Assembly: GCA_903869185.1 (NCBI GenBank)
Contig: CAIPYC010000165.1
Coordinates: forward strand, 1 to 48,058
From: an uncultured cyanobacterium
GTDB taxonomy: Bacteria; Cyanobacteriota; Cyanobacteriia; Cyanobacteriales; Microcystaceae
Length of the DNA: 48,058 nt
Reading direction: 5' to 3'
Shown here one piece after another: positions 4,028 through 48,058 of the stretch. The stretch's first letter is position 1, and each line of letters opens with the position of its first letter. A model generated the notes under the pieces. It was not told the origin of the DNA, searched no databases, and saw nothing but the letters and a program-made list of their open reading frames with translations. Position numbers and translations under genes: made by a program.

Positions 4028-7000
4028 ATCTCCCTCACTGTGATTACTTGATTCATTTCTGGTGGCTCACTATTGTGATCAATAGCTATTACTGTACCAG
4101 TAAGTAGCCTACCTTGTCTATTTTTGATTTGTACGATCAAACCAAGTATTAGTTCTGGAATGTAGTTATTTAGCCTTACTTGGACAACTTCGTGTGGATC
4201 CTTAAAATTATTCAAAAAATAAGTATACAGGAATGCTACAGATGGAGTTACTATAGTGTTATTAGCAATAGGCTCGGTTAGTGTAGTATAGGCAAAATCT
4301 GCATCTATTTCTAGTTCTTTGATACCATACTTTTTTTGGCTGGTTAAATCCTCCAGAAAGTATTGAAAATCTGTATTGCCTATATTAGAATTCAAAAAAT
4401 GTGCTTTAGGAACGCAATTAGCTTTTAAAGTCAAATATCCTAAGTATCTATCTGTAGAGTTAGAATTATAAAAAGTGACGTAAGGCACACCATTTTCAAT
4501 TCCTGTATCAATTATTGAGACTCCAGTATTATTGTAGCTGGCATTAGGATCGGTAGAGACAACCCAGCTTTGAACGTAGATGCTATTTATTGGAATATAA
4601 ATATAATCTAGGATTGAAGAATTAATTGTGTAAGGCGTCCCTAAAACATAGTAAGTTACAGATACATTGTATTTTACATTATCTTTTTGGTCTAAGTATA
4701 CTTTTTTTCTTGCATTGGCAGCTATAACCTCGTTGGAACCTGAATTGTAGAAATTAATAAAATAGATTGAACCTTGATTAAAAATATTTGGGAAAACGTT
4801 AAGCTTAAATTTCAATCTGTTAAAAATAAAATCGTTAGTGGTAGTATCAGACAAATAGCCACCATCGTCAATTAGATTATCGTTGATTACAAATGGTGTT
4901 GGCTTAGTTAAGTCGGCAGTAGAAATTGCTGGATTATACCACGTTTTATAGCCACTTCTAGCAATTAGTCTGTTATTAATCGGGTCAAAAGTAATATAGC
5001 CAAGAGTAGCATTTAGTATTTTTTCGATCACTGAGCCTATAGTATCAAACATGTCTATACTAAACAGGCTTTGTTTTTTATAGTTCTGAATTGTTCCATA
5101 TGTAGGGTGTGTGTACCACAGTCCTAAATAATCATCACCTGTATTTAAAAAATTAATATCCACATCGTAAAAAGAACTAGGGAAACAAAAAGAAAGAATA
5201 TATTTAAGATTATCATTCAGCCAAGTTTGTGGTGAGCTTGTAATTCCAACCAAATTGTTATTAGGGAAGCTCGGCAAATCAACAAATCTTTTGGTTTTGA
5301 TTTTTTCAAAATAATCTAAAATGGTAAAACTTACATCGTCCTCATTAAGTAGTCTAGTATCAATCACACCTCCCAAAGCACTTTGTTGATAGTAAGTAGC
5401 CCCGTCGTCGCTAGATACAGAATTTTTAAGCACTATTGGCTCGCCAGGTATATACTCCACAGCTTGGTCAACATTTTTATTTAGAATTAAATTAGCATAA
5501 TACACACTTTGGCTACCACTAGTAGTTTGGAAATTACACTTGAAGGTAATCATATTTGACCAATTACCAGTCCCAGTTTTAGTAAAATCACCTTTTTTAA
5601 TTTTAATTTTGTTAGAAATCCCATCTACCAAAGTGTTTTGATTGAGTGATAAACTAGCTTGGTAAGTAGTAGTTGCGCCCGAGCTTTCAAAGCGTAAGTA
5701 GGAATTAGCCAGGCTAATATTAGCAACTGTATCGCAAGCAAAATCTAATTCAATATAGTCTAAATCAGTGCTGTTATAGGTTGTAGAATTTACCTCGTTT
5801 GGCAGATAAAAAGTAGATAAATCATTTAAATTATTGCTGGATAAATCAAGTGCTTGAATACTTACAGAATCTACCAGAGCAGAGGTAGTAATCGTATTTT
5901 TTCTTGAAAAAGCTTGTATAAGGTTACTTAGTGGATCTGTTTGAGTGTATTGAGTAGAGTTTGTCCAACCTTCCGCATCAATGCCAGTAGCTAGGGTTTT
6001 TCTAAACACATTTTGAATTTTGGCAGTTGCAGAGGTTGTACTGGAGCCAAAGACTCCATTACTTAATTTACTAGAAATATTGAAAGCCCCAACTGGTGCA
6101 TAGCTAGTATAACTCCAGCTAGTATTGCTTGTATTAGTTTGGCTACCAATGCTAATAGTTGGCATATCAGTAATAGAATATAGCCTGTATTTGTTGTTGA
6201 TATAGCTTCTTACTGTATCTCTATCTGTAGAACCCAAAGCACTTTGGAAAATCAAAATTTCAGCTATATCTCCGCTAAAATTACGTGAAATACCATTACT
6301 ATTTGCTCCAATAATTAATCCGCCAGTAGGATCTATTGGATTAGTACCTGCTATAGTTCCAATGTTTGTGTTATTGAGATAGAAGCTAGGCGAGCCTGAG
6401 CTAATTGTCATTGCCACTACATTAAAGCCAGTACCAATAGAAGTAGCAACACTTATCCATCTGGAATTTTCATACAAGGCTAAAAGATTATTACCATTTA
6501 CACTATTATCCGTTACCGATGTCCCAATTCCAATGGCTACTCCATTAGGCGTGCCATTACCAATTTTTAAAAGATTACCATGAGCAGAACTACTTGGAGG
6601 TCTAAAAACTACGAATACAGTTAAATTTTGAACGCTTGGAATAGGTAGAGTATTTTGACCAGTTAGCCAAGCAGTGTAAGGGGAAGAAAAATTATTAAAA
6701 TTTATTGTTTCTATGCCATTAACTTGGTAAAATGATAAAATTGGAGTGTGGGCAGAATCTCCATTAGCAACAAAATCAAAATTACTTTTTTCATTTGCCC
6801 AAGTAGATTTAATAGAATTAAAAGATGGGTCTAGTTGATTATTGCTAACCCTATAATCCCTATAATTGCCCATGAACCAATGAGTAAGAGTAGCGTTACT
6901 AAAAATACTACCAATCACGGAGCTATCTGATAAACTAGCTAAGGCTGGATTTCCATATTCAAAATAAATTGTCTTGGTAGAGTTAGAAGCAATACTAGGT

Positions 7001-35134: not shown

Positions 35135-35611
35135 TTAATGTTCTAATTTAGATTTCAGATAACTTATAAAGTCTATTTTTTCTTTAGCAGTTTTTTTAAG
35201 CAAAACTGAATATCTATTTTTGTCTGGTACCAACAAAAGTTTTAGTTTATTTTTATTATATAAATGTTTAATTAAACAAGCAAAATCACCATCACCCGTT
35301 ACTACGATCGCCTGATCATAATCTTGGAAATCTATCATAGCTTGCAAAACCAATTCTGCATCGCAGTTTCCTTTTATTTTACCATCTGGAAGAGTCATAC
35401 TTTCTTTAAAAATTAGTATGAAACCATATTTTTGAAGAGATCTATAAAGATCAGAGTTTGCAGGAATATATCCTATAAATAGATAAGCTACTTCAACTTG
35501 ATATTTTTCTTTTAAATAAATTCTAAATTTATTATAATCCAACTTCCAGCCAAGAGTTTTCATAGCCATATATAGGTTATTTGAATCTATAAAAGCGTAA
35601 TTTTTGGTCAT
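35135..35611 (-). CDS. NYN domain (PIN-like) nuclease
   Basis: A 158-residue single-domain protein of the NYN/LabA group. The conserved acidic residues are visible: Asp9 in YAFIDSNNLY, Asp84 in GNCDAELVLQ, and Asp107 and Asp109 in VVTGDGDFACL. NYN proteins are metal-dependent RNases. A TTGACA (minus strand, 35643-35648) lies upstream. Its place next to the methyltransferase-nuclease transposon is suggestive of a defence cluster, though it lies outside the terminal repeats. Confidence 0.85.
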   Translation of the reverse strand: MTKNYAFIDSNNLYMAMKTLGWKLDYNKFRIYLKEKYQVEVAYLFIGYIPANSDLYRSLQKYGFILIFKESMTLPDGKIKGNCDAELVLQAMIDFQDYDQAIVVTGDGDFACLIKHLYNKNKLKLLLVPDKNRYSVLLKKTAKEKIDFISYLKSKLEH

Positions 35612-35724: not shown

Positions 35725-35748
35725 GGTAACTATATACTTGACAGACCC
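35725..35748 (+). repeat. left terminal inverted repeat
   Basis: 24 bases beginning GGTAACTATATACTTGACAG; the exact reverse complement is at 38150-38173. It contains a TTGACA hexamer reading inward. Confidence 0.95.
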
Positions 35749-35749
35749 A

Positions 35750-36229
35750 TCAAAGATGATTTTTGTTGCTCCATTGCTGAAATTCACTCATGTTCATAAC
35801 TTTTAAAAGCTTGTTATCCGTTTGGTCTCTTAACCATTCTTCAGCCTGTTTTTTGTAACCTCCACCATCAATCAAAATTATTGTTTTTGTAGGATATTTC
35901 TGTTTAATATTTAAAACTAGAAAAGGGTATTTCTCATCAACAGACCCAGCGGTTTGTTGCCACTTACTTTCAATTAATAAACCTTCTGGCCATAAAGTAG
36001 GATGGTAAATATAAAAATCACAATAAAGCTTTGTATTGTATATACTTTGACCTATAAAAACTTGCCTTGAGTAAATTGGTTGTTCTAAGTAGATTGCTGA
36101 AGTAAACTTTTTTTTATCTATAAATTGATAACCTTTCCTTGATAAAATACCTTCAATAAAAACTTCTAATTCGTTTCCATTGTCATTTGCAACTTTACCT
36201 CCAATTGGCTTGACTGGATATTCATTCAT
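35750..36229 (-). CDS. PD-(D/E)XK nuclease, restriction partner candidate
   Basis: A 159-residue single-domain nuclease. The active site is visible as Asp71 in LYCDFYIYHP and Glu87-Ser-Lys89 in LLIESKWQQ, with an upstream acidic helix (ELEVFIEGILSRKGY, Glu26). The later VLNIKQKYPTKTIILIDGGGY looks like the second half of the fold. It is the last gene of the transposon and stops with TGA two bases after the left terminal repeat. With the adjacent methyltransferase it forms a likely type II restriction-modification pair. Specificity cannot be read from the sequence. Confidence 0.75.
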   Translation of the reverse strand: MNEYPVKPIGGKVANDNGNELEVFIEGILSRKGYQFIDKKKFTSAIYLEQPIYSRQVFIGQSIYNTKLYCDFYIYHPTLWPEGLLIESKWQQTAGSVDEKYPFLVLNIKQKYPTKTIILIDGGGYKKQAEEWLRDQTDNKLLKVMNMSEFQQWSNKNHL

Positions 36230-36264
36230 GAGCGGATATTTTTTGTTTATACCCTTTCTGTCAA

Positions 36265-37179
36265 TTAGTAATTAGTTATTAAAACTTCATTTACACTATT
36301 TCTTTGGCCAGGTTTGCAATTAACAAATCTAGGAGCAGAAACAAATTGAATATTGTAATTTTTGTATAAATCTTTAATAAAATTTGTGTCTGAATTAGAA
36401 AGCATAAAATACACACCATTTTTGTTTAAAAAATCACAAAAATCTCTTAATCGTGCTTGATCTTTTTCAGTAAAATCTAATTTAGTGTAATTTGTAAAAG
36501 AAGTTTCATTCGTTGGATGGTATGGAGGGTCAAAATAAACTAGATCTCCTAAGGAAGGTTTAATACTATCAAACTCTTTGTATTCAATTTTAGTATTTTT
36601 CAAAGCCTCATAACAAGCCCATATATTTTTTTCTTGAGATATGTTGGGGTTTTTATATTTACCCATAGGTACATTAAATTCTCCTTTTTTATTTACTCTG
36701 TAAAGTCCATTGTAGCAAGTTTTATTCAAATATAAAAATCTTGATGCAATTTCTATTGGGTCTTTTAGCTCCTGTCTAGATCTGATCTTATAATAATACT
36801 CTTCACTGTGCTTTAACTCGTGGATTTTAAGTGCTTCAATTAACTTTAAAGGGTCTTTTTTAACAACATTATAGCTAAGTACCAAATCTAAGTTAATATC
36901 AGATAAAAAAGATTTTTTAAGCTTACTACTAATCTCAAAAAATAATGCACCACCCCCAACAAATGGTTCGTAGTAATTATTAAATTCTTTTGGTAACCTA
37001 GACACGAGATCTGACATTATACTTCTTTTTCCACCAACCCACTTAACAAATGGGGTTGCTTTTTCTGTCTCTTCATCAAGTGGATCGGGTAAGGTATTTA
37101 GGTTAAAGTTGGCAAACTTAAACAAAGCCTCTTCAAAGGGTAAATCTAATTTTACAATAGGCTCTTTTAGTTTTAACAT
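36265..37179 (-). CDS. Dam-type (D12 class) adenine-N6 DNA methyltransferase
   Basis: A 304-residue methyltransferase. The SAM-binding motif is PFVKWVGGKR (residues 43-52), EPFVGGGALFFE lies at 71-82, and the catalytic DPPY is at 217-220. The length and YNGLYRVNKKGEFNVP segment match the Dam/D12 class, whose members often modify GATC. A 40-residue N-terminal extension precedes the domain. It is encoded one base after the transposase gene. GATC sites are still present in this phage (for example 1751, 2322, 3529), so site loss has not happened. Confidence 0.9.
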   Translation of the reverse strand: MLKLKEPIVKLDLPFEEALFKFANFNLNTLPDPLDEETEKATPFVKWVGGKRSIMSDLVSRLPKEFNNYYEPFVGGGALFFEISSKLKKSFLSDINLDLVLSYNVVKKDPLKLIEALKIHELKHSEEYYYKIRSRQELKDPIEIASRFLYLNKTCYNGLYRVNKKGEFNVPMGKYKNPNISQEKNIWACYEALKNTKIEYKEFDSIKPSLGDLVYFDPPYHPTNETSFTNYTKLDFTEKDQARLRDFCDFLNKNGVYFMLSNSDTNFIKDLYKNYNIQFVSAPRFVNCKPGQRNSVNEVLITNY

Positions 37180-37180
37180 A

Positions 37181-38110
37181 TTAATTCTTAATTAATTGGC
37201 TATAAGTTAATCTACCAAGTGTGTTTTGTAATAAATAATCAAATCTTTCTGATTGTTCTAAATTTCTTGTGTTGTATCTAAAGGCAAATTCAGCAAAATA
37301 TCTATGTAAATGTTCTTTACTGATAAAATGATAGATACCGATTACACTTCTCTTGGCAAGTGACCAAAAACCCTCTAAAGTGTTGGTGTGAGCTTCGCCG
37401 TTTACATATTCATTTGCAGAGTGATTAACTGAATCGTGCATATAAAAGCTTGCGAGGCTATTATAAGCCCTGTATTCATCAGTAATAAGGTTTGAACCAA
37501 TTAAAACGTTGTTCATCACGTGAACTTGAATAGTGTTACTTTTTGCGTCCTTTAAAATTTCAGTTTTAACAATACCCCCTCTTTCAAGCAGACCTAAAAC
37601 TGCTGTTTTGGTTTCTGTACTTCGTCCTTGTGTACCTTTTATCTTTTTAGAATTGTGCTTGTTCTTTTCCTTGCCCCCAATATAGGTTTCATCAGCTTCA
37701 ACTTTATTTCTTAATTTAATATCTTTAAATTCTTTAGTTAAAGTCGCCATTCTTAAACGGTGCAACATAAACCAAGCTGTTTTTTGGGTTACACCTAAAT
37801 CTTTGCTTAATTGGACTGATGAAATACCTTTTTTGTGGTTAGTTATTAAATAAATAGCACCAAACCATTTTTGTAATGGTATTTTACTTTCTTCAAAAAT
37901 TGTACCAGTTCTAGCATTAAACTTTTTCCTTGTTTCAGCACACTTAAAAGTTTTTCCATCTTTAAACTTATAAACTCTATCTGAGCCAGTAAATGGTGAA
38001 ATTACTTTACCACTCCATTTCATTTGAGCTAAATGTTGTTGACAAGCTAACTCATCTTTGAAAGTAGTTAGTAAGTCTAAAAGAGTGTTATATTTTTTTA
38101 CTTGTACCAT
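37181..38110 (-). CDS. IS1595 family transposase
   Basis: A 309-residue DDE-type transposase. I chose the ATG at 38110 (MVQVKKYNTLL) because the longer frame crosses the terminal repeat. The N-terminal zinc-ribbon-like region has lost its first Cys pair (SPFTGSDRVYKFK), as in many members of this subgroup. The catalytic core has EADETYIGG (Asp140), TDEYRAY (Asp211) and NTLEGFW (Glu246). A helix-turn-helix (QLSKDLGVTQKTAWFMLHR) binds the ends. All residues needed for activity seem present. Confidence 0.9.
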   Translation of the reverse strand: MVQVKKYNTLLDLLTTFKDELACQQHLAQMKWSGKVISPFTGSDRVYKFKDGKTFKCAETRKKFNARTGTIFEESKIPLQKWFGAIYLITNHKKGISSVQLSKDLGVTQKTAWFMLHRLRMATLTKEFKDIKLRNKVEADETYIGGKEKNKHNSKKIKGTQGRSTETKTAVLGLLERGGIVKTEILKDAKSNTIQVHVMNNVLIGSNLITDEYRAYNSLASFYMHDSVNHSANEYVNGEAHTNTLEGFWSLAKRSVIGIYHFISKEHLHRYFAEFAFRYNTRNLEQSERFDYLLQNTLGRLTYSQLIKN

Positions 38111-38131
38111 AGAAATAGTTTTACTATCTCT

Positions 38132-38160
38132 ATAGTAGATTAATTTTTTGGGTCTGTCAA
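38132..38160 (-). promoter_or_regulatory. transposase operon promoter
   Basis: On the minus strand TTGACA (38155-38160, inside the terminal repeat), 17 bases, TACTAT (38132-38137). The -10 lies in a 16-base palindrome TACTATAGAGATAGTA that could bind a repressor. Confidence 0.65.
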
Positions 38161-38173
38161 GTATATAGTTACC
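38150..38173 (-). repeat. right terminal inverted repeat
   Basis: Exact reverse complement of 35725-35748. It carries the -35 element of the transposase promoter. Confidence 0.95.
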
Positions 38174-38331: not shown

Positions 38332-39504
38332 ATGTATCTTAGAAACTCAGATATTATCAAAGGTTATGGTATCAGTAGTGGTACTGCTAGCCAGTGGTCT
38401 AATAACGCCAAAGAAGGCAAAAATAACCTAACTTTGGTTGAAGTAGAGGGCAAACAATATATTCAGGATACACCAGCCAACCACGAAGAATTAGATAGAC
38501 TATATCAATTAGGGCGAAATAAACTAAAATCAGATTACAAAAAAGAAATTATAGCAAGTAAAGAATTTTTGAGCCTGTTTACTGATGAGCAATTAATTGA
38601 GTTTATATCAGATCTTGGAAAATACGAAATCAACGGCAAATTTGGCTATTTTGGTAATGGCGCAAATATTTGGGACAAAATCTATCACGAAGGTAATTCT
38701 AGGCTTCAAGTACTTTCTTTGAACGTAATCAACAAGTTAATGGAGTTACTTAGTGTTTACTTAGAAAACAAAAGTTACAATGTTTTTGATGTTGGCGCTG
38801 GCAATGGCGAGCCATTATTTCCATTTATCCACGCCTTAAATGCCAAAAAACAGCTAAACAAGTATTATTCCATAGATATTTCCAAAGAAATGAACGAACT
38901 AGCTAAACAAAATATTGAAAAAGAAATTGGAGATAATTATGGAGGATACCTAACCACAGACATAGAAGCTACCACCTTTTCTACTTACTTCTACAAAAAC
39001 ACCCCAGACAGCACCAACAATATCATTTGTTTTTTTGGTCGTACGATTGGTAATATTTCCGACAGAGTTAGAATTTTTGATAATATTGCCAAGGGCATGA
39101 CTGCCAAGGATTTGTTTGTTTTCAATTTTTCCCTGGATACCAAACAAAACAACCAAGATTTGAATAAAATGAAAAGTAATATCCAAAATGAACTACATTC
39201 TAGTTTACCCGAATTACTAGGAATTGAAATTGATCAAAAAACTTTCTACACCGATTTTAATCCTGAACTAAACTTTAAATTCAAAACCTTCAAAGCAACC
39301 AAAGAGTACCAAATTAATTTTCCAGTCTTTAATCATACCAAAAAAGTCCACATTCCGATAAACACAGAAATTACAGTTTGGCGCGCCTATACCCTAGACC
39401 AAAAAGAAATCATAGACGAACTAGACAAGGCAGGTTTGGAAGTACTAAGTTTAACCAAAGACAAAACTGCACAAACTGCAATGATTATTTGTAGATTGAA
39501 GTAG
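38332..39504 (+). CDS. EgtD-like SAM-dependent methyltransferase with N-terminal DNA-binding-like domain
   Basis: A 390-residue protein. The N-terminal 75 residues (YLRNSDIIKGYGISSGTASQ) resemble a small HTH domain. From about residue 110 it resembles histidine-specific methyltransferases of the EgtD group: SAM motif VFDVGAGNGE (151-160), YYSIDISKEMNELA, NIICFFGRTIGNI and the substrate-side end TAQTAMIICRLK. I recall similar two-domain proteins from Patescibacteria. The substrate is unknown; methylation of histidine or a modified base are both possible. It is transcribed alone with no Shine-Dalgarno. Confidence 0.7.
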   Translation: MYLRNSDIIKGYGISSGTASQWSNNAKEGKNNLTLVEVEGKQYIQDTPANHEELDRLYQLGRNKLKSDYKKEIIASKEFLSLFTDEQLIEFISDLGKYEINGKFGYFGNGANIWDKIYHEGNSRLQVLSLNVINKLMELLSVYLENKSYNVFDVGAGNGEPLFPFIHALNAKKQLNKYYSIDISKEMNELAKQNIEKEIGDNYGGYLTTDIEATTFSTYFYKNTPDSTNNIICFFGRTIGNISDRVRIFDNIAKGMTAKDLFVFNFSLDTKQNNQDLNKMKSNIQNELHSSLPELLGIEIDQKTFYTDFNPELNFKFKTFKATKEYQINFPVFNHTKKVHIPINTEITVWRAYTLDQKEIIDELDKAGLEVLSLTKDKTAQTAMIICRLK

Positions 39505-39510
39505 GGCTAG

Positions 39511-40377
39511 TTATAAAAGCTCCTGTTGTTTTTCACCTATTTCATAGTCTAGTACCTTCAAAATTTCATATTTAAAAGAAGTTTTATCACCTTCCACTTT
39601 TTTGATTTCTTTCAACCAAACTTTAAATTTATCTACTGAACTTGGTCTTTTAATCCCTAATTTTACATCGTTAAGGAACACAGTGTCTTTAATTGTGGCA
39701 GTTATTATATCACTATCTAACTTAAAAGACCAATTATCAGGTTCACCACTAAAACTACCTCTTTTAAATTTCAAAACAACTTCTTTTTCAGTTATATATT
39801 CATTAGGGTTAGAAACTTGGTTGGAATAGGCTTCAAGATAAGGTATATCATCTTTCGTTATTTGAGCAAAAGTATCTGGTTCATTTTTAATCCCTGTTTT
39901 AATTCCATTGTCACCAGACAAATATATAGGACCCTTAAAAACAGGATTTACCATTTTAATAATAGTAGGTTGGTTGTATAAAACGCCTATTTTGCTTTGT
40001 CTAGCATCCAAATTCTGTGTGAAAGTTTCAGGAACTTTCTCTCCACCAAACTTTCTAATCCAACTAATTAAATTATCCGAACCATCTTTAACCAAACCTA
40101 ATATAGATAAAATCTCTTTAATTTGATTTTGAGTTTGTGGTAAAAATACGCCAGCTAAAAGAGTAGTTTGTAATAATAGTTCAATTTCTATTGATCCTGG
40201 CTTAACTGGTAAAATATTAACTTTTAATTCTTTTCCTTCTGTTATATTTAATATTTTGTTTGTTTGTTGTATTAATTCACCTAAGCCAAACATTAAAGAC
40301 GCCATAACCTCAAAAGATATACCTTGATTTTGGTCTGCATCCAAACTATAAACAAAATTGACTCTATTTTCGGACAT
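39511..40377 (-). CDS. hypothetical protein, 289 aa
   Basis: Unknown soluble protein. I chose the ATG at 40377 (MSENRVNFVYSLDADQNQGI); upstream ATG codons at 40386 and 40398 are possible. The first 100 residues have a compact alpha-beta pattern (FEVMASLMFGLGELIQQTNKIL; VNILPVKPGSIEIELLLQ). The middle is beta-rich, and the C-terminus has a VLKFKRGSF type strand set and a DDW-type end. A TTGACA at 40408-40413 on the minus strand may drive it. It stands alone beside a structured RNA candidate, a pattern seen in phage-borne defence or counter-defence genes; that role is not shown. Confidence 0.65.
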   Translation of the reverse strand: MSENRVNFVYSLDADQNQGISFEVMASLMFGLGELIQQTNKILNITEGKELKVNILPVKPGSIEIELLLQTTLLAGVFLPQTQNQIKEILSILGLVKDGSDNLISWIRKFGGEKVPETFTQNLDARQSKIGVLYNQPTIIKMVNPVFKGPIYLSGDNGIKTGIKNEPDTFAQITKDDIPYLEAYSNQVSNPNEYITEKEVVLKFKRGSFSGEPDNWSFKLDSDIITATIKDTVFLNDVKLGIKRPSSVDKFKVWLKEIKKVEGDKTSFKYEILKVLDYEIGEKQQELL

Positions 40378-40412
40378 GCCTATCATTTTCCAATTCATAA
40401 TATTTTTTGTCA

Positions 40413-40594
40413 AAACCTAAAATCTGGAGGCTAAGGGTTTACACCTTAGCAATCTGCCCTCGGACATTGTTGCAACAATTTTGGCTAGGCTCTTGCGAGA
40501 ACATAAGCACTACCGATATTTGATTAAGGGGCTTGCGTCTCTCTTCCGCCACTCCAGGTTTTAACTTTCACCACCCCTACCAAGGGGCTTTTTT
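40413..40594 (+). ncRNA. structured RNA candidate
   Basis: The region 40424-40557 is closed by CTGGAG...CTCCAG, with AAAACC/GGTTTT extending the stem. Inside are GCTAAGG-GTTTACA-CCTTAGC (40430-40450), the palindrome ATTGTTGCAACAAT (40466-40479) and CTC-TTGC-GAG (40490-40499). A strong intrinsic terminator follows at 40574-40594. No protein-coding frame is present. The GC content is higher than its surroundings. The plus-strand orientation is indicated by the terminator. Class unknown. Confidence 0.6.
40574..40594 (+). terminator. strong intrinsic terminator
   Basis: CCCCT (40574-40578), loop ACCA, AGGGG (40583-40587), C and six T. A GC-rich stem in an AT-rich genome makes this the clearest terminator in the window. 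It ends the RNA candidate upstream. Confidence 0.85.
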
Positions 40595-44033: not shown

Positions 44034-45080
44034 ATGTCTAAACTAATTTTTTGCGATCTTAATAAGTCGTTAGTAAGTAAGGTAAGAACTTTATTTAAAC
44101 AATACAAAACCAATAAATGGAATGTAGAACTAGAAGCAGTAACAGGAGATATTTTTAAATGCCAAAAAAAGAATATTGGCTTTAAAATATGCACAGCATC
44201 AAACCCAGACTTTAATATGGCTGGGGGATTGGATAAACTAATTCTTGATAAGTTTGGCGGTGAAATAAATAACCCACAAGAATTTTGTTGGGATAACAAT
44301 GTATTTTATACAATTTCAGTTAATACTAATTTAGTAGCTACTAAAGAACAAGCCAAAAGAGCTTTAATTGGTATTTTTGGATATAAGGCAAAGAATTTGA
44401 TTTTCAGTGGATTGGGAACAGCAATTGGTGGCATGAGTGAAGAAGATTTTTTGATAGTGTTAGAAGAAGTATTAGGGGCTGACTTGAGTTATGCTGACTT
44501 GAGTTATGCTGACTTGAGTGGGGCTAACTTGCGTGGGGCTAACTTGAGTGGGGCTAACTTGAGTTATGCTGACTTGAGTTATGCTGAATTGAGTGGGGCT
44601 AACTTGCGTGGGGCTAACTTGAGTAATGCTGACTTGAGTAATGCTGACTTGAGTAATGCTGACTTGAGTAATGCTGACTTGAGTTATGCTGAATTGAGTA
44701 ATGCTGACTTGAGTAATGCTGACTTGAGTGGGGCTAAAATTTTTAATAGTTTAGATTGGCTGAAAAAAAACTTTAAATCAGACGAAAAAGGTCTAATTGT
44801 CTACAAGAGAATTGGTAGTAGTACAGATTATACAGCCCCTACTAGTTGGGTAATTGAGCCAGGTTCGATAATTGAAGAACTAGGTGTTAATCCTTTACCT
44901 ACCGTTCATTGTGGCAGTGGAGTTAATTTTGCTACTTATGAGTGGGCAAAAGATTATGCCAGTAGCTCTGATTTATGGGAGTGTAGAATTAATTGGATGG
45001 ACTTAGCTAGTGTTGTAGTACCTTATAACACAGATGGTAAGGCAAGATGCCAAAGATTAGAATTAATATTAAAAAAATAA
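44034..45080 (+). CDS. macro domain - pentapeptide repeat - DUF5758 fusion protein
   Basis: A 348-residue protein of three parts. Residues 1-147 fit a macro domain: [15 protein letters not shown] (about 55-69) matches the ligand-binding loop, and [15 protein letters not shown] (about 125-139) the second conserved loop. Residues 149-233 are 17 pentapeptide repeats (A-D/N-L-S/R-x), expected to form a right-handed quadrilateral beta-helix. Residues 234-348 match the DUF5758-like C-terminus ([34 protein letters not shown]). Macro domains bind or remove ADP-ribose, and pentapeptide repeats often mimic DNA. It could counter an ADP-ribosylation-based defence. That role is inference. Confidence 0.8.
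44478..44732 (+). repeat. 17 tandem 15-bp units encoding pentapeptides
   Basis: Units such as GCTGACTTGAGTAAT recur with near identity, including codon choice. The repeat therefore looks recently expanded and could vary in length by slippage. Confidence 0.9.
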
Positions 45081-47492: not shown

Positions 47493-47978
47493 ATGTCTAC
47501 AAGAAGCCTTACCAAAATAATACTTAACAACCAAGTTAAAGTTGCTCAATATGGTCAATATGATGGCAATTTAACTGGAGCTGGTTCAATAATTGCTAAT
47601 TTTATATCAGAAAATTTAAACAAGGATTGGAAATTAGAAAGATTTAAAGAGTTGGTAAATAATTTAATACCAATTACAGATAGGGAAACACTCTTTAAAT
47701 TAATTAAAGAGAAATGGTCAAACCAAAGTCTACCTGATGCTTTTGTAGTCGAAACTGGTGCAGAAATTTTAAATATTATCAATGATCACTTAACAGACTA
47801 TGTTTTTTTAACACCAGAATTTGAAAAAGATTTTTTGTGTGAATTTTGTTATACAATTAATTTAGACAACGAAACTGTAAAAGTAAATAATTCAACAGAA
47901 ATACCCTTTGAATTATGGACTAATAGTTTGCTTGAAGTGGTAGAAAATGTAAATTTAGAAATTTTAAAATCAATATAA
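47493..47978 (+). CDS. hypothetical phage protein, 161 aa
   Basis: Begins MSTRSLTKIILNNQVKVA and contains QYGQYDGNLTGAGSIIANF. This resembles a widespread family of phage proteins that start MSTRS...YxQYDGYPxG. The function of that family is unknown. The last 56 bases of the gene are repeated at the beginning of the window. Confidence 0.65.
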   Translation: MSTRSLTKIILNNQVKVAQYGQYDGNLTGAGSIIANFISENLNKDWKLERFKELVNNLIPITDRETLFKLIKEKWSNQSLPDAFVVETGAEILNIINDHLTDYVFLTPEFEKDFLCEFCYTINLDNETVKVNNSTEIPFELWTNSLLEVVENVNLEILKSI

Positions 47979-48058
47979 ATATATGTCAGCATGGATTAAA
48001 ATTGGAATACCTGATAAACATTTTACCAGTGTTAAAAGGTCAAAGGATACAAACGCTC
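47923..48058. repeat. terminal direct repeat, right copy
   Basis: Identical to bases 1-136. It includes the ATG (47983) of the gene annotated at 61-537, which is truncated here only because the window ends. Confidence 0.95.

Follow-up and report, generated by a model that had tools for sequence, protein, structure and literature searches.

A probable IS1595-type transposon with a putative restriction-modification pair as cargo in a phage contig from a cyanobacterial bin

Can a restriction enzyme and the methyltransferase that protects against it spread together as the cargo of one transposon? The question is raised by a locus on contig CAIPYC010000165.1 of the uncultured-cyanobacterium assembly GCA_903869185.1, analyzed here over the whole 48,058-bp stretch (the window), in which inverted repeats enclose a transposase gene, a methyltransferase gene, and a nuclease gene. 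A first-pass annotation, made from the letters of the sequence alone, had proposed that such a restriction-modification (R-M) pair is spread as a single transposon. This proposal is supported by the recurrence of the arrangement in 13 further elements, eight of them with perfect target duplications, and we consider it likely that the locus is a self-contained IS1595-type transposon with a Type II R-M pair as cargo.

Anatomy and recurrence of the element

The element occupies 2,449 bp on the minus strand (positions 35725 to 38173), and 13 relatives share its three genes. Its terminal inverted repeats, one at the promoter-proximal start of the element (38150 to 38173, minus strand) and one at the far end (35725 to 35748, plus strand), are identical at 24 of 24 bp and have similar counterparts in relatives; the next-longest inverted-repeat pair of 100% identity among the matches listed measures 13 nt. 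With up to three mismatches allowed, the 24-mer end has one forward and one reverse site in the source genome and none besides. The three genes are co-directional on the minus strand and tightly packed in the order transposase (37181 to 38110; 309 amino acids [aa]), methyltransferase (36265 to 37179; 304 aa), and nuclease (35750 to 36229; 159 aa), and a single base separates the transposase stop from the methyltransferase start, as it does the nuclease stop from the left repeat. The transposase start was placed at the ATG at 38110; a longer open reading frame (ORF) beginning with TTG reaches 38215 and so starts beyond the element. Upstream lie a −35 hexamer, TTGACA (38155 to 38160, minus strand), within the repeat at element position 14 and, after a 17-nt spacer, a −10 hexamer, TACTAT (38132 to 38137, minus strand), a consensus match that is by itself no evidence of function. 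A −35-like hexamer (TTGACA, TTGCGT, or TTGACG) stands at the same element position in L031, L131, L132, L207, and L264, where L-numbers are the locus labels of relatives in this analysis. One promoter with its −35 hexamer in the terminal repeat would drive all three genes as a packed operon. The first-pass description of perfect 24-bp repeats around exactly three genes was confirmed, and its suggestion that the repeat supplies the promoter's −35 hexamer fits the positions found.

The transposase matches NF033547 (204.7 bits, cutoff of 75) and PF12762 (E = 4.9e-42; 144 bits, cutoff of 27), both above cutoff, as its first-pass assignment to the IS1595 type had anticipated. Its DDE catalytic triad (D140, D211, and E246) is present, and across 89 aligned transposase rows D140 is found in 89 of 89 and D211 and E246 each in 88 of 89, with one gap each. 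Excerpts of PMC8101967 describe an N-terminal zinc ribbon for the IS1595 subgroups except IS1016. The window transposase matches the zinc-ribbon family PF12760 at 20.4 bits, under the 25.4 cutoff, and three of the ribbon's four cysteines are absent from it; we place it in IS1595 broadly (NF033547/PF12762) and claim no named subgroup.

A search for the same three genes within such ends elsewhere, suggested in the first-pass annotation, succeeded. In a sample of transposases from genome contigs (the best 80 of at least 583 confirmed relatives), five carried the matching methyltransferase and nuclease with the order kept: L031 from SAR202 (Chloroflexota), L057 from Moraniibacteriota, L075 from a planctomycete, L076 from Eremiobacterota, and L077 from Acidobacteria. 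Nuclease profile searches of genomes from sampled phyla, which matched 3 of 379, 18 of 350, 26 of 292, 8 of 246, and 11 of 247 genomes, counts that take in the seeds and the genome of the window, added L131, L132, and L181. Viral (IMG/VR) contigs contributed five more, namely, L183, L264, L212, L268, and L207 (L206 has matches identical to those of L207 on a second contig, and the two were counted together). The three-gene elements thus total 14 including the window's, from five named phyla besides the window's own plus the IMG/VR contigs; the other 13 comprise eight from genome collections and five from viral contigs. A distant blastn search of the whole element against plasmids returned pieces in 23 records, none covering 80%.

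Perfect 8-bp target duplications flank 8 of the 14 elements (L031, L075, L076, L077, L131, L132, L183, and L264), which marks the lineage as a real transposon. At L057 the duplication holds at 7 of 8 bases; the window element, L207, and L212 have both repeats and no target duplication; and for L181 and L268 only one end was recognized or covered. In the sample of 80, terminal repeats alike at 16 or more of 24 positions bounded 43 loci of 1,958 to 4,783 bp, and perfect target duplications flanked 33 of these, of which 31 do not carry this R-M pair. Among ten other elements compared, only L075 and L077 have ends that, like the window's, are the same over the first 24 bases. An additional antisense open frame with repeated HxCxxC-like motifs lies upstream of the transposase in L076 (3375 to 3980) and L077 (105 to 940), and L031 contains a different CxxC ORF of 69 aa (6512 to 6721).

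The methyltransferase, the nuclease, and their cohesion

The methyltransferase matches PF02086 (E = 1.2e-60) and the Dam/DpnM subfamily model TIGR00571 (301.3 bits, cutoff of 114.85), and its closest solved structure is DpnM (234 bits versus 142 for the next, a DNA adenine methylase). Residues through which Escherichia coli Dam contacts its GATC site are named in excerpts of PMC10073500; by a hand count on the alignment, Dam K9, Y119, L122, R124, and P134 correspond to K46, Y156, L159, R161, and P171 of the window protein, of which K46, L159, R161, and P171 are invariant across 11 methyltransferase rows. This conservation points to GATC specificity, and we predict that the protein is a DpnM/Dam-like N6-adenine DNA methyltransferase that marks GATC.

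The nuclease matches PF20472 (PDDEXK_11; E = 3.7e-39) and has no match in NCBIfam, PADLOC, or PHROGs at E = 0.01. Of its catalytic residues D71, E87, K89, and Q91, all but K89 are invariant over 14 nuclease rows, and K89 is found in at least 90%. Both first-pass identities, a D12/Dam-type methyltransferase and a PD-(D/E)XK nuclease, were therefore borne out. An AlphaFold2 model of the nuclease (mean predicted local distance difference test score, 91.7) is closest, among PDB structures, to BstEII, a restriction enzyme of Type II (Z = 10.8 and 3.3 Å over 140 residues). The nuclease profile matched that of 13 aligned cyanobacterial DpnII proteins over 104 columns within the DpnII catalytic part (probability of 83.7; E = 8e-6, valid for a single comparison); one control, against the methyltransferase alignment, gave 0.2%. 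At all 13 of the compared DpnII loci, the methyltransferase is 35 to 54% identical to the window's. By fold and profile, the nuclease would be a small DpnII/BstEII-like restriction enzyme, predicted to cut DNA that lacks the methyltransferase's GATC mark. With such activities, the pair could act in superinfection defense or in post-segregational stabilization. The window copy itself is presumed to have moved.

Relatives of the nuclease were sparse by direct search: tblastn found one plasmid record (30% identity) and none among phage records, and a single-sequence scan of viral contigs found nothing, whereas a profile scan of viral contigs found 43 loci. One transposase-less locus, L103 (4848 to 5312), keeps the order of the pair and has ExQ in place of ExK in the nuclease, which is possibly inactive. 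L279 (4962 to 5462) encodes a distant PDDEXK_11 nuclease with no adjoining methyltransferase, flanked by an ORF matching uracil-DNA-glycosylase plus 3′-5′ exonuclease and by a family A DNA polymerase.

The three genes have diverged together. Across 13 elements (the partial L268 was left out), pairwise distances were strongly correlated between transposase and methyltransferase (0.89), transposase and nuclease (0.90), and methyltransferase and nuclease (0.91; permutation P = 1e-4). On a quick transposase tree of 89 rows, in which the window's own position is weakly supported, the 14 three-gene elements required 4 label changes versus 13.2 for shuffled labels (none of 500 shuffles was that low). 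The methyltransferase tree comprised 47 rows, with L084 omitted as identical in content to L103, and its bootstrap had not settled. On one side of a branch with support of 96/97 lay the 14 elements, four co-directional transposase-less pairs, and two distant viral rows; on the other lay 27 rows of the window's phylum that are convergent and transposase-less. No flanking repeat pair was seen around three co-directional transposase-less pairs, L133, L134, and L135. The simplest reading of these trees would be one capture of the R-M pair followed by losses of the transposase; repeated capture, or a swap of transposases, may also have occurred, since the starred branches force at least three changes in the methyltransferase tree.

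Linkage within the pair extends to loci without the transposase. A D12 methyltransferase lay beside the nuclease relative at 19 of 19 loci (of 25 matching genomes besides the window's) and, in further sets, at 16 of 19, 24 of 27 (L136 to L162, including the window as L140), and 12 of 18 (L163 to L180); weakly matching nucleases, a number of three-gene elements, and the window itself are among those counted, and some genomes appear in more than one set. Other PDDEXK_11 members (L182, L269, and L290) pair with N6_N4 or phage-Dam methyltransferases. The first-pass annotation had held that a stand-alone nuclease would speak against the unit. For close relatives (most of the length, at least 38% identity) whose upstream sequence was covered, the methyltransferase adjoins the nuclease in the loci examined; some weaker or partial viral matches, among them L273, L279, and L296, lack it. 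Only some loci were examined with Pfam for this comparison.

Competing explanations

Several observations weigh against an active R-M transposon at this locus. On the side of the enzymes, the window nuclease gave no match to PF04556 (DpnII) at E up to 1, and other PDDEXK_11 members match that family weakly, under its cutoff; no Foldseek match reached E = 0.001 (1.1e-3 for BstEII); Bax1 and Can2, which are nucleases and not restriction enzymes, follow BstEII at Z = 8.6 to 8.7; and GATC is barely avoided in the phage part of the contig (100 sites versus 118.6 expected; observed/expected = 0.84). On the side of the element, no target duplication is found at the window copy (flanks AAAAATAT / TTTATTTT), which is also single-copy in the source genome, so that this copy may no longer move. 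Moreover, all four zinc-ribbon cysteines are kept in each of the 13 other three-gene elements, but three of them are missing from the window transposase, which counts against simple cohesion.

The points concerning the element suit an account in which the R-M pair works and the window copy is a fossil, fixed in the phage, its flanks rearranged after insertion. Besides the lack of a duplication, the single copy, and a zinc ribbon that is divergent among the three-gene elements, it is favored by a 38-codon open frame to the right of the element that resembles a cut gene end; its relatives are all weak, the best match outside the source genome having E = 0.022. Against it, the repeats are perfect over 24 bp and the transposase triad is intact; a cysteine-poor zinc ribbon is common to 45 of the 89 transposase rows, and the 31 pair-less elements with perfect duplications were counted with both zinc-ribbon states pooled. 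We accordingly do not conclude that the cysteines were lost by plain decay, although the window is unique among the 14 in this respect. Fossilization of this copy is compatible with the lineage explanation, and we give it appreciable weight, though we would not expect it to prove correct.

A second set of explanations concerns GATC in the transposase promoter. This site falls between or on the −35 and −10 hexamers in 6 of 13 three-gene elements (L268 left out), in the spacer of L057, L075, L076, and L212 and overlapping the −35 hexamer of L132 and L207, versus 0 of 74 IS1595 loci without the pair. The control loci were taken from genome contigs that extend 100 nt or more upstream, had gene starts estimated from the alignment, comprised no viral relatives, and included several near-identical streptococcal copies; 30 of the 74 had a promoter score of at least 10/12, and 8 of the 74 had GATC anywhere in 130 nt. 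Shuffling of 11 promoter cores (L077 and L181, which have no convincing promoter, omitted) reached six GATC in 3 of 20,000 trials. The six GATC promoters belong to two clades that are themselves related; the counts therefore lack independence, and their strength is overstated. L132 and L207 also have GATC in both terminal repeats, and the window element and its close kin L031, L131, L183, and L264 have no promoter GATC. This distribution suggests control of the transposase by self-methylation in sister lineages, the window element being without the site.

Two readings build on that pattern. In the first, which is possible but doubtful, the element belongs to an old and widespread transposon lineage whose own methyltransferase is at once antitoxin to the restriction enzyme and, in several branches, a brake on the transposase. 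The enzyme would punish loss of the element, and the brake would act through the promoter GATC and, in L132 and L207, also through both repeats. If this were true, a newly arrived, unmethylated copy would transpose and be expressed freely, and an established, methylated copy would be quiet; the promoter GATC of the sister elements lends itself in any event to a direct test of whether a transposon is regulated by its own DNA mark. In the second, the methyltransferase mainly controls transposition, as Dam does with IS10, and the nuclease is a secondary stabilizer. We regard this as unlikely: in addition to the absence of GATC from the window element and its four close kin and the restriction of the six sites to two related clades, the nuclease is present in all 14 elements (its presence being a condition of their selection), and some loci have the pair but no transposase.

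It is less plausible still that the genes are a phage set, in which the methyltransferase shields the phage from host GATC enzymes, the nuclease attacks host or rival DNA, and the transposase is incidental. The window is indeed a tailed phage, and 5 of the 13 other elements lie on viral contigs; yet the remaining 8 come from genome collections, and the target duplications argue that the transposon, and not the phage, is the moving unit. Nothing was found in favor of chance juxtaposition or an assembly artifact, which is extremely improbable: 14 elements, drawn from different assemblies, share the gene order, and eight of them have perfect duplications.

The R-M transposon that we favor sits in a phage. 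The window is an entire contig that carries terminase, portal, major head, tape-measure, endolysin, RecT-like, and integrase genes, and an identical 136-bp direct terminal repeat occupies its ends (1 to 136 and 47923 to 48058). The phage genome is probably complete, circular or circularly permuted, at ∼47.9 kb, and the phage is perhaps temperate. The source bin contains two photosystem II (PSII)-family matches, a family found solely in Synechococcus elongatus among 14 control genomes; the bin is therefore cyanobacterial, and the phage would infect the cyanobacterial host of its bin. The element's neighbors encode an NYN/LabA-like protein (35135 to 35611) and an EgtD-like methyltransferase (38332 to 39504), and viral scans with both of these flanking proteins found no relative. 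Nearby, a 300-aa protein (39511 to 40413) matches the PADLOC candidate defense family PDC-S42 (E = 1.2e-21), and a tandem array with a 15-bp period (44445 to 44774) lies within the ORF at 44034 to 45080. Outside the element, the phage strongly avoids GGCC (6 sites versus 71.3 expected) and CCGG (6 versus 21.5), which looks as if its host restricts such sites.

Known systems and other IS1595 cargo

Beyond this pair, it seems that IS1595 elements repeatedly carry a methyltransferase or R-M-like set as cargo: L073 (2937 to 4483) carries an N6_N4 methyltransferase with an MvaI/BcnI endonuclease match, L006 a C5 methyltransferase, and L017 and L049 N6_Mtase matches. Of the cargo ORFs in the 43 repeat-bounded elements, 81 are 100 aa or longer, and these also include nine RhuM, nine P63C, six Bro-N, and five KilA-N matches. 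In many IS1595 elements (L004, L005, L042, L044, L069, and others), the transposase is followed by a member of a cluster of 26 related ORFs. RhuM and IS1595 are named together in one paper. Among the papers listed in a literature search, none is described as reporting an IS1595 element with this pair, which does not establish absence from print; excerpts of PMC6211672 and PMC6563490 have no bearing on such an element. Methyltransferase passengers of IS1595 may already have been described.

Taken together, these results suggest that restriction systems can spread already packaged as transposons, and the packed set of R-M genes and transposase, found across phyla with correlated divergence, offers a concrete unit for testing ideas of R-M systems as selfish elements. 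Travel of R-M genes within insertion sequences (ISs) or transposons, on mobile elements, is reported in excerpts of PMC4176335, and the abstract of PMC3031569 describes movement of the PaeR7I system with the help of ISs. In the PaeR7I case, chromosomal ISs acted on a plasmid, whereas in the present element the R-M genes are internal to the transposon and follow its transposase.

Among IS1595 elements with passengers (tIS, MTnSag1/tISSag10, and tISCpe8 in excerpts of PMC5704250), the tIS elements share with ours a family DDE transposase, terminal repeats of ∼25 bp, extra genes, and, in the case of our element's relatives, target duplications (excerpts of PMC5704250 and PMC8101967). They differ in cargo, which here is an R-M pair; as excerpted, tISCpe8 is titled a lincomycin-resistance element, and tISCpe8 and MTnSag1/tISSag10 are described as mobilizable. 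The window copy differs further in lacking a target duplication and most zinc-ribbon cysteines. The GATC system DpnII/DpnM resembles the cargo in that the methyltransferase is closest to DpnM and the nuclease profile matches the DpnII catalytic part; in contrast, the window nuclease has 159 aa versus ∼285, reads ExK at the motif that is ExN in the aligned DpnII row, and does not match PF04556 on its own.

For promoter methylation, there are two precedents. Dam control of IS10, IS50, and IS903 involves GATC in transposase promoters (excerpts of PMC9296519 and PMC10073500), as in some sister elements and not in the window copy, but here the transposon itself encodes the methyltransferase. CfrBI, AhdI, and LlaDII regulate themselves by promoter methylation (excerpts of PMC12707154), with a methylation site in the system's promoter, as we propose for the sister elements; in those systems the promoters are the R-M genes' own, whereas here the site would lie in the promoter of the transposase that leads the operon.

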